Assembly (NCBI GenBank): GCA_002708415.1
Contig: PANS01000015.1
Span: 1 to 35,797, forward strand
Direction of reading: 5' to 3'
From: Micavibrio sp.
GTDB taxonomy: Bacteria > Pseudomonadota > Alphaproteobacteria > Micavibrionales > Micavibrionaceae
Length of the DNA stretch: 35,797 nt
The position numbers and the translations under genes were made by a program. The notes beneath the pieces are model-generated. The model had not been told where the DNA came from. It was given only the letters and a program-made list of their open reading frames with translations, and made no database searches. How positions within the stretch are numbered: the stretch's first letter is position 1; each line of letters starts with the position of its first letter. Of the stretch, positions 20,622 to 22,760 are shown piece by piece.

Positions 20622-21128
20622 ATGGCACTAGCAATGAGACTATCAAGAGGCGGACGTAAGAAGCGTCCTTTCCACCGTATCGTCGTAGCAGACAAACGTA
20701 TGCCGCGTGATGGGCGTTATATCGAGCGTTTGGGAACATACAACCCACTACTCGCAAAAGATGACGAAAACCGCGTTAACCTTAATGAAGAGCGCATCAA
20801 ATACTGGTTAAGCGAAGGCGCAGAGCCGAGCTACCGTGTAGCCGTATTCTTGGGTAAAGCTGGCTTGGCTCCAATGCCGGCGCAGCGTAACAACCCACAA
20901 AAAGCTGAGCCATCAGAAGCAACGAAGCTTCGCGTCGCTGACAAAGAAGAGAAAAAAGCTAATGCTGCTGAAGCGGCCAAAGCGGCTGAAGAAGAAGCAA
21001 AAGAAGCAGCAAAAGCAGCTGCTGAAGAAGCTCCTGCAGAGGAAACGCCAGCCGAAGAAGCAGCTCCAGAAGCTGCAGCGGACGCTCCTGCTGAAGAACC
21101 TGAGGCACAAGAAGCAAAAACTGAGTAA
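20622..21128 (+). CDS. rpsP: Ribosomal protein bS16 with Ala/Glu-rich tail
   Basis: The first 85 residues are a standard bS16: [24 protein letters not shown] is split here by a leading MA, followed by [13 protein letters not shown] and the WLSEGAEPS motif. The protein then continues to 168 residues, about twice E. coli bS16, with an Ala/Glu/Lys-rich, probably disordered tail that repeats AEEAPAEE-like units. Such tails are common in alphaproteobacteria. AAAGGAG precedes the ATG at ideal spacing. The stop codon is 76 bases before the DUF559-RimM start, with the left end of the DUF559 cassette in between. Confidence 0.96.
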
Positions 21129-21140
21129 AAACAAATCATG

Positions 21141-21570
21141 TTTCCCTCTCCCCATGGGAGAGGGTGACTTGAACAAAGTGAAAGTCGGGTGAGGGGATTT
21201 ATTCATGCCAGACAAAACTATTCAAAACGCCCGTGAATTACGAAAAAACCAAACTGAAGCTGAAAAGCTACTCTGGTCAAAATTACGCAACAAACAATTA
21301 AATGGCTTTAAATTTAGACGGCAACACCCTTTCCCTCCCTATATCCTCGATTTTTTCTGCGAAGAGCTCAATCTTGCTATCGAATGCGATGGTGGTCAGC
21401 ACACAGAAGAAAAAGACAAAAAGCGCTCAAATTTTATTGAAAGCAACAATATTAAAATCCTACGCTATTGGAATAATGAAATTATTGATAATATAGAGGG
21501 TGTTTTGGAAGATATTTTAAATAACATAAATACACCTTCACCCAAACCCCCTCCCCAAGGAGAGGGCTCT
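21141..21570 (+). mobile_element. Small repeat-flanked DUF559 cassette inserted between rpsP and rimM
   Basis: The left end contains the palindrome CCCTCTCCCCATGGGAGAGGG (21144-21164 region) and GGGTGAGGGG (21187-21196). The right end (21536-21570) contains CACCC, CCCCCTCCCC and AAGGAGAGGG, a degenerate inverted copy of the left end. The DUF559 gene lies between. From family knowledge, DUF559 genes in many bacteria lie between such CCCTCTCC/GGGTGAGGG repeats, their last codons being the repeat itself (PSPxPxPxGEG). The cassette carries no transposase, so it probably moves with outside help. Boundaries are estimates. Confidence 0.65.
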
Positions 21571-22059
21571 AAGCGTATTTGCGTTGCCAAAGTTGCAACC
21601 GCGCACGGTATTAAGGGGCTCGTTAAACTTCACGTCTATGCCGATGACATCGCGCTCATCAAGGGTGATCTTTATACGGACAAAACTGATGATAAGACCC
21701 TAAAAATCACCCCAAAGAATGCAACAGCCAAACATTGGCTTGCCGAAATTGATGGCGTTACAGATCGCACACAGGCCGAAACATTTCGCGGCACAGAACT
21801 TTATATTGAGCAAACACTTCTGCCTGAAATCGGCGAAGATGAATTTTACTATTCAGACCTTATTGGCCTTCCTGCCATTGATGAAGAAGGAAAAGAGATT
21901 GGTGAGATTATCGCCGTTGAAAACTTCGGTGCCTCCGACTTACTCGATATCAAACCCAAAGGCGCACAAAGCTTTTACTTGCCAGTGACCGATGATACGC
22001 TGCTGGAGATTAGCGAGAACAAAGTAACTGTCGCTATACCTGAAGGTTTATTAGAATGA
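21205..22059 (+). CDS. rimM: DUF559 nuclease-like domain fused in frame to RimM, 16S rRNA processing protein
   Basis: RimM assists 30S maturation near bS16/uS19. Here one 284-codon frame holds two proteins. Residues 1-108 are a complete DUF559 domain with the PD-(D/E)xK-like residues D49 (YILDFF), E60 and D62 (IECDGGQH). Residues 110-122 (TPSPKPPPQGEGS) are encoded by the cassette's right repeat. RimM runs from about 123 to 284: ICVAKVATAHGIKGLVKLH, then a PRC-barrel (DEFYYSDLIGLPAIDEEGKEIGEI). The RimM part is full length and has no methionine, and no ATG, GTG or TTG lies near the junction, so the normal start codon has been lost. The stop overlaps the trmD start (ATGA). Whether the fusion is cleaved is unknown. 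Confidence 0.85.
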   Translation: MPDKTIQNARELRKNQTEAEKLLWSKLRNKQLNGFKFRRQHPFPPYILDFFCEELNLAIECDGGQHTEEKDKKRSNFIESNNIKILRYWNNEIIDNIEGVLEDILNNINTPSPKPPPQGEGSKRICVAKVATAHGIKGLVKLHVYADDIALIKGDLYTDKTDDKTLKITPKNATAKHWLAEIDGVTDRTQAETFRGTELYIEQTLLPEIGEDEFYYSDLIGLPAIDEEGKEIGEIIAVENFGASDLLDIKPKGAQSFYLPVTDDTLLEISENKVTVAIPEGLLE

Positions 22060-22760
22060 GCATAAACTTTAACCTCCTCACCCTTTTCCCTGACATGTTT
22101 CCAGGCATGCTTGGCCAGTCTTTGGCTGGTAAAGCGTTAGAGCGCGGTGACTGGTCATTCAACACGGTTAATATTCGTGATTTTGCGAGCGATAATCATA
22201 AAACAGTTGATGATACACCTTATGGTGGCGGCGCAGGCATGGTGATGCGCGCAGATATTGTTGAGAGCGCCCTCACCTCTATCCCAAAACAAAAACAAGG
22301 CCGAAAGATATACCTTTCCCCACGCGGTAAAGTGCTTAACCAAGCGCTCGTAAAAGAATTATCTCAAGAAGAGAACATCACACTTCTTTGCGGTCGTTAT
22401 GAGGGCATTGATCAGCGCGTTCTTGATGCACACGACTTTGAAGAAATCTCTATCGGGGACTATGTCCTTTCTGGAGGTGAGCCAGCCGCGCTTATTCTTA
22501 TGGATGCTTGTATTCGCTTACTTGATGGTGTGATGGGTAATGTTGATACGGCAGATAATGAAAGCTTTGGCACCAATACGGGCGGTCTTTTGGAATACCC
22601 GCATTACACACGACCAGCCGAATGGGTTGCATCAAATGGACAAACTTACGAAGTACCCGATGTTTTAAAAGGCGGTAATCATGCAGACATTGATAAATGG
22701 CGCAAAAAAGAAAGTTTAAAAATCACTAAGGCCGTGCGTCCGGACCTTTTAGAGAAATAA
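22056..22760 (+). CDS. trmD: tRNA (guanine-N1)-methyltransferase
   Basis: TrmD makes m1G37 in tRNAs and prevents +1 frameshifting. The 234 residues show the SPOUT knot motifs: LCGRYEGIDQRVLD, the IGDYVLSGGEPAAL loop that binds S-adenosylmethionine, and GLLEYPHYTRPAEW. PYGGGAGMVM near 57-66 is also a family landmark. It follows rimM with a four-base overlap and is part of the classical rpsP-rimM-trmD-rplS order. Its last 35 bases overlap, on the opposite strand, the end of the glycosyltransferase gene. Confidence 0.97.
   Translation: MSINFNLLTLFPDMFPGMLGQSLAGKALERGDWSFNTVNIRDFASDNHKTVDDTPYGGGAGMVMRADIVESALTSIPKQKQGRKIYLSPRGKVLNQALVKELSQEENITLLCGRYEGIDQRVLDAHDFEEISIGDYVLSGGEPAALILMDACIRLLDGVMGNVDTADNESFGTNTGGLLEYPHYTRPAEWVASNGQTYEVPDVLKGGNHADIDKWRKKESLKITKAVRPDLLEK

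Follow-up and report, generated by a model that had tools for sequence, protein, structure and literature searches.

In REP and REPIN systems with a RAYT (TnpA-REP), the enzyme gene is flanked by inverted palindromes, and inverted pairs that lack the nuclease occur in the same genomes. The DUF559 domain has reportedly been seen alongside a transposase in a Legionella segment that is repeated and recombines. The DNA described here comes from a predatory-type bacterium whose family is called Micavibrio-like below. RPEs are small palindromic repeats that lie between genes as well as in frame within the genes of conserved proteins, where the hosts remain recognisable (accessible text of PMC10969869 and PMC2229807), and the second of these sources, a 2007 review, called the movement of such small repeats an open question. 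According to the accessible parts of the respective papers, CGTC REPs have been reported in Micavibrio aeruginosavorus (PMC3733652), DUF559 has been placed in the EDxHD homing-endonuclease family (PMC9403480), the homing endonuclease I-Bth0305I is a multi-domain protein with a long target (PMC3943268), Caulobacter VsrA is a DUF559 protein of Vsr-like repair (PMC12907096), and some Alphaproteobacteria have a fusion of DUF559 with a SPOUT methyltransferase (PMC1829167). Neither flanking palindromes nor an in-frame, repeat-flanked cassette was found described in the accessible text of the DUF559 reports cited here, and the element described below was not found in titles and abstracts on RimM fusions, Micavibrio palindromes, REPIN/RAYT, coding palindromes or RPE mobility, a scope that lies outside most subscription papers.

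The window, which is the whole stretch of 35,797 nucleotides that was analysed, contains a 284-codon open frame on the forward strand (21205-22059) in which a DUF559 domain and a complete RimM are joined by a translated repeat. The initial annotation had read the frame in this way, and the unbroken frame, Pfam and NCBIfam all agree with it. Pfam analysis of the product places DUF559 at residues 5-108 (124 bits), the RimM N-domain at 126-203 (56 bits) and PRC_RimM at 217-282 (40 bits); the NCBIfam model TIGR02273 (16S_RimM) matches the second half at 120 bits, and the top fold matches are RimM structures, so this half has both the N-terminal and the PRC-barrel domain of a RimM. It is the only RimM match, and its partner the only DUF559 match, in the source genome (G000; 1.37 Mb, 60 contigs, 77% complete). 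From their translations, we take the neighbouring genes to be rpsP (ribosomal protein S16; 20622-21128, forward strand) and trmD (22056-22760, forward strand), the latter starting within the stop of the fusion (ATGA).

Inverted repeats bracket the DUF559 part. The rpsP stop lies 15 nt before a palindrome, P (21144-21164), of the form CCCTCTCCC-CAT-GGGAGAGGG with perfect 9-bp arms, which did not match once in 100 shuffled versions of the window. It is followed by an inner motif b, GGGTGAGGGG (21187-21196, forward strand), which ends 8 nt before the DUF559 ATG and may act as its Shine-Dalgarno sequence; the motif also lies 3-8 nt ahead of the DUF559 ATG in six other genomes (G003, G110, G111, G107, G038 and G039). 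DUF559 itself, which has a predicted PD-(D/E)XK nuclease fold of the Vsr/EDxHD type, occupies residues 1-110 (21205-21534, forward strand). Between it and RimM lies a degenerate mirror image of the left-hand palindrome and motif, consisting of motif b' (CCTTCACCC, here degenerate as CCCTCACCC; 21535-21543, reverse strand) and palindrome P' (21547-21566). This right-hand repeat of the cassette is translated as the linker TPSPKPPPQGEGS, and an AlphaFold model (six sequences, pLDDT 77) has two folded halves connected by a low-confidence segment at residues 110-121 (pLDDT < 50). The RimM portion (residues 122-284 plus stop; 21568-22059, forward strand) has no canonical start of its own, and residue 1 is the single Met of the 284-residue product, as had been said at first of the Met-less RimM portion.

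Of 38 genomes searched with the fusion protein, 37 gave a match. The congener G003 has the same fusion, matched over residues 1-282 at 61-62% identity in an unbroken frame. In the other eight congeners the match is confined to the RimM part, with open frames of 164-215 codons; one of them, G006, has DUF559 elsewhere in its genome, fused to SufD. A search across 142 genomes of the order gave a match in 133, and among the matches listed those of G110, G111 and G107 span both domains. Together with G003 and G064, where both domains lie within one 323-codon frame, the search for further DUF559-RimM fusions that the initial annotation had proposed thus yielded five other genomes, four of which belong to three genera other than that of G000. 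The G064 copy is atypical: its N-terminus is degraded and codon 123, ahead of RimM, is an ATG. We include it among the fused copies with reserve. G038 and G039 carry the cassette directly upstream of a rimM that retains its ATG: the DUF559 stop overlaps this ATG in G038 (GGGAGAGGGACATGA), and in G039 the same frame has a TGA a short way ahead of it, so this genome is counted as unfused despite a reported 316-codon frame matching both domains. In G075 and G080, DUF559 lies downstream of rimM. In the two species of genus g3 that were viewed it is located between rimM and trmD, with 72% identity between the species, compared with 94% for RimM over 95 residues.

The comparison with relatives, also proposed at the outset, agrees with the suggestion that the insertion removed or displaced the start of rimM. 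In G000, G003, G110, G111 and G107 at most about 3 nt separate the right palindrome from the conserved RimM segment and rimM lacks its ATG, so that in the window the only ATG is that of DUF559; ahead of the same segment, an ATG is kept in most unfused relatives whose rpsP-rimM gap was read. It is extremely improbable that the fusion is an assembly or sequencing artefact. The source genome is a fragmented draft, but the fused frame is present in six assemblies, and we reject an artefact because a congener and four genomes in three other genera share the in-frame arrangement and two more have the cassette before an intact rimM. At five loci from relatives that lack the cassette, the rpsP-rimM gap holds other palindromic repeats, and it seems to be a spot where hairpin repeats commonly land.

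Whether RimM is made only as a fusion depends on the start codons within the frame. No ATG, GTG or TTG had been noted near the junction, which is correct for ATG and GTG and incorrect for TTG, as an in-frame TTG encodes residue 101 within DUF559 (21505-21507, forward strand) and could serve as an internal start. The in-frame start-type codons of the fusion are limited to ATG 21205, TTG 21505, TTG 21979 and GTG 21985, and apart from TTG 21505 none follows the DUF559 start before residue 259. The proposed dependence on the DUF559 start therefore stands in that the only ATG is that of DUF559, and has to be relaxed as to fusion-only RimM, given TTG 21505 and the relatives with an ATG. Indeed, RimM could be made separately, by initiation either at TTG 21505, which has AGAGGG just 5' of it, or at an ATT present at 21577, which would use the Shine-Dalgarno-like AAGGAG of the palindrome, and the fusion frame would then be incidental. 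We gave this alternative more weight because other fused genes hold internal ATG or GTG codons: an ATG at codon 101, the end of DUF559, in G110 and G111, a GTG at the junction in G111 and G107, and the ATG ahead of RimM in G064. In the stretch from the DUF559 core to the RimM segment, however, G000 and G003 offer only TTG codons. The TTG at 21505 encodes a conserved DUF559 leucine, is also TTG in G038, whose rimM keeps its own ATG, and as a start would leave a leader of about 22 residues; the GTG, at the valine of a KRV motif, likewise occurs in the unfused G018, which has an upstream ATG. Separate production thus appears unlikely overall, and an internal start may be less likely in G000 and G003, with TTG only, than in G110, G111, G107 and G064, where an ATG or GTG lies close to the junction.

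RimM is one of several core proteins that carry this domain. Across a family sample of 104 Micavibrio-like genomes, DUF559 was matched in 42 and strongly matched (E < 1e-20) in 36, with 46 strong matches in total; these include a few partial or contig-end-cut matches (in G051, G038 and G011) and exclude nine weak or fragmentary ones (E > 1e-20), one of which is in G009 of the same genus as G000. On reading of the frames, 25 of the 46 turned out to be joined in frame to a core protein, namely PriA (10), RimM (6), SufS (4) and one each of SufD, MurA, Mfd, TrpF and a class I tRNA synthetase. Fourteen of these 25 were checked by Pfam or alignment and the rest by eye, and some run off contig ends. 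The TrpF domain is split into two stretches by its cassette. Two further DUF559 copies were seen by eye just upstream of sufD; DUF559 is directly upstream of this gene in two genera and fused to it in a third, which is the same series of adjacency and fusion as at rimM. In PriA, inspection by eye of loci from several genera placed DUF559 at one inter-domain position. The PriA of G039 instead has it just before the helicase core, where that of G038, with DUF559 at the usual place, has a solitary in-frame palindrome.

A GTDB protein-similarity search, from which the best 80 of 505 relatives were used, extended these observations beyond the family. Among 71 loci not linked to rimM, at least one of them from the same family, repeat motifs were present on both sides of DUF559 in 48 and on at least one side in 60, with a motif density of 11.85 per kb near DUF559 and 0.12 per kb away from it. 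Eleven long frames around DUF559 were read; six were left uncounted as spurious GC-rich frames by eye, and all five given to Pfam were confirmed as fusions, with valyl-tRNA synthetase (ValS), a LipB-type ligase, a class I/II aminotransferase (read as BioF), a precorrin-8X methylmutase (CobH/CbiC) and a xylose-isomerase-like TIM barrel. The LipB-type gene with a DUF559 cassette is from a Burkholderiales MAG, and the lipB of G000 holds a solitary palindrome; LipB is thus a repeated target in distant groups.

The DUF559 domain is likely to be a nuclease of the homing-endonuclease (EDxHD/Vsr) fold, as predicted from sequence and model. Besides RimM structures, the best fold matches of the fusion are 3hrl (TMt 0.84), a DUF559-type protein that is also matched by sequence, and 3r3p (TMt 0.72; Foldseek E 0.005), the catalytic domain of I-Bth0305I. 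In addition to the profile match, the catalytic-type residues expected of a DUF559-type nuclease are present: E20, D49, E60, D62 and H66 are kept in all 25 fused copies, in 20-21 of the 21 unfused copies in the family and in 70-71 of the 71 other copies. DUF559 is under purifying selection in close pairs, with dN/dS values of 0.083 in the fused pair G110/G111 (RimM, 0.087), 0.090 in the unfused pair G038/G039 (RimM, 0.192) and 0.165 in the pair G075/G080 (RimM, 0.032), two remaining pairs being saturated in one part.

These data also bear on the idea, raised in the initial annotation, that the fusion ties a nuclease to 30S assembly. If the fusion had been selected as such, DUF559 would be a working enzyme held on RimM for 30S assembly or rRNA processing, and the low dN/dS of both domains in G110/G111 and the recurrence of fusion or adjacency at one site in several genera would be in keeping with this. 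Yet the same domain is attached to PriA, SufS, SufD, MurA, Mfd, TrpF and a tRNA synthetase, outside the family it is found on ValS, a LipB-type ligase, an aminotransferase and CobH/CbiC, and among the matches listed for the 142 genomes of the order the two-domain frame is present only in the six named. Such a role is therefore quite improbable, and the functional tie was dropped as a lead because the same cassette is fused to so many unrelated proteins. The other possibility that had been raised, a carried passenger, fits best, and this passenger resembles the enzyme of a mobile, translatable repeat.

Palindromes also occur without DUF559. Seven of nine such elements in G000, G003 and G006 lie in frame inside genes and two are intergenic. 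The host genes encode pyruvate dehydrogenase E2, MurB, RecO, LipB (cut by a contig end), PrmC and PdhB, all over NCBIfam cut-offs, and a dihydrofolate reductase below them. The MurB insert is absent in the congeners G001, G009 and G004, whose AceF has an ordinary linker at the place of the insert. Small palindromes in frame in conserved genes, as described for RPEs, are hence a feature of these three genomes but not of the loci sampled in genus g29, all eight of which were judged intergenic by eye (six inverted pairs and two singles, 0/8 in frame); beyond these eight, one further palindrome in this genus is in frame, in the PriA of G038. Two regions extracted from G110 and G112 to look for solitary palindromes contained none.

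The number of palindromes follows DUF559. When the pattern CCTCTCCCN{0,8}GGGAGAGG was counted in the 104 family genomes, it was present in 32 of the 36 with strong DUF559 and in 15 of the 68 without (Fisher 4e-11), and after subtraction of two palindromes per cassette 30 of the 36 carriers were still positive (1.6e-9). Permutation of labels within genera gave p = 0.0003. Ten genera include both states, and after subtraction DUF559 carriers have more palindromes in eight of them, both states have zero in another, and the trend is reversed in the last. In the genus of G000, the three genomes with strong DUF559 (G000, G003 and G006) have 6, 6 and 3 palindromes and the seven others have 0; one of these palindrome-free congeners, G009, has only a weak DUF559 match (9.7e-5) and was the only genome matched by a backwards control pattern. 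A composite pattern of motif b, spacer and P (GGGTGAGG N{0,30} CCTCTCCC) gave no match in six genomes, its order or gap being wrong for these elements. Counting against the main explanation, 15 genomes have palindromes without strong DUF559, and four with strong DUF559 have no palindrome of the exact pattern. A RAYT (Y1/HuH transposase) was rejected as the partner, since Y1_Tnp does not track the palindrome: the nine congeners G001-G009 have a single match each, seven of them being palindrome-free, and there is no match in G110, G111, G112, G107 and G064, which have 3-21 palindromes.

DUF559 might nevertheless be a mere hitch-hiker, with the palindromes moving by another transposase, by recombination or by replication slippage and carrying DUF559 genes along. 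The link to DUF559 is an association among genomes, g29 has paired palindromes without the gene, and there are the 15 genomes just mentioned. We consider this reading improbable, as the within-genus association survives the subtraction of two palindromes per cassette, the Y1 transposase does not follow the palindrome, nuclease-type residues are kept in every fused copy and dN/dS is low in two pairs.

The history of the insertion at rimM was approached through trees. On an RpoB tree of 23 genomes the fusion requires at least four changes, and it is absent from G001, the sister of G000, and from G112, next to G110. On a DUF559 tree, copies at rimM need two label changes (1-4 in bootstraps; shuffled mean 9.2, 0/500 as low) and those at priA five (shuffled mean 9.2, 0/500 as low), although the resolution of this tree is poor, with 20 of its 43 inner branches open, and near-copies add to the clustering figures. 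Copies at the same site are thus related, a pattern compatible both with homing to a cognate site and with an old, often lost insertion. A single old insertion at rimM, inherited and lost many times, is a real possibility at somewhat less than even odds: the clustered rimM-site copies branch as (G000,G003), (G038,G039) and (G107,(G110,G111)), broadly like the RpoB tree, while the changes needed on that tree and the fusion-free G001 and G112 speak for repeated or homing insertion. DUF559 of G000 is hardly closer to that of G003 (65% identity) than to that of G110 (64%), whereas RimM identity falls from 58% to 45%, and these near-equal values make us lean weakly to homing. This alternative concerns the history and not the nature of the element.

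Taken together, we favour the reading, with a probability of roughly 0.7, that this is a mobile element of a REPIN/RPE-like kind that can be translated, with DUF559 as its likely enzyme, and that RimM is a tolerated carrier. A cassette of the form P-b-DUF559-b'-P' would have inserted in the rpsP-rimM gap, directly at the rimM start. The right palindrome, open in the needed frame, would encode a flexible linker rich in Ser, Pro, Gly and Glu, so that DUF559 and RimM could be read as one protein; the rimM ATG, by then redundant, would have decayed. As judged from the sequence of motif b and of the open palindrome with its linker, RimM would now most likely be translated from the DUF559 ATG, with motif b as the ribosome-binding site. 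The cassette would be one autonomous copy of a widespread mobile element, and the small palindromes without a nuclease its non-autonomous relatives. Such an element could persist in core genes because its translation meets no stop and the addition is limited to a linker, alone or with a compact domain; at the 5' end of a gene or in a surface loop, a cassette would probably leave the host protein working. Cutting by DUF559 is the likely motor of spread, as suggested by the association, the fold and the selection on the domain.

As the number of palindromes goes with a single small gene in the 104 genomes, a candidate mobilising enzyme can be named, and a function to look for can be offered for DUF559, a common domain of unknown function. 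The data also indicate that core proteins, including RimM, PriA, SufS, MurB and RecO, can accommodate an entire nuclease domain or a translated repeat. A broader proposal, to which we give only just short of an even chance, is that DUF559 is the nuclease of an unrecognised, bacteria-wide class of mobile elements, which would have translatable palindromes as their ends, enter core genes without breaking the frame, favour certain sites (the rimM start and the inter-domain segment of PriA, for example), remain in place as a linker with or without the nuclease domain, and move by a homing-like cut rather than by a transposase; coding palindromes such as RPEs could move likewise.

Compared with the known systems, the element is like RPEs in that its palindromes lie in frame in conserved genes whose proteins remain recognisable, a likeness in description. 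It is unlike them in that a full-size relative carries DUF559 between the repeats and the palindrome number follows this domain; the accessible text of PMC10969869 and PMC2229807 names no enzyme for RPEs. VsrA and the DUF559-SPOUT proteins contain the same domain, described in the accessible text of PMC12907096 and PMC1829167 without flanking repeats, mobility or a RimM fusion. Self-splicing inteins offer no parallel, as Pfam matched neither an intein nor a Hint domain in the fusion. As in REPIN/RAYT systems, an enzyme gene lies between inverted palindromes (P-b...b'-P') and inverted pairs without the gene are also present, but the partner is a DUF559 nuclease and not a Y1/HuH transposase. The EDxHD homing endonuclease I-Bth0305I is comparable in the fold match to 3r3p and perhaps in the related copies found at the same site in several genera, whose branching also matches that of the hosts, but here DUF559 is one compact domain and its cassette stays in frame.
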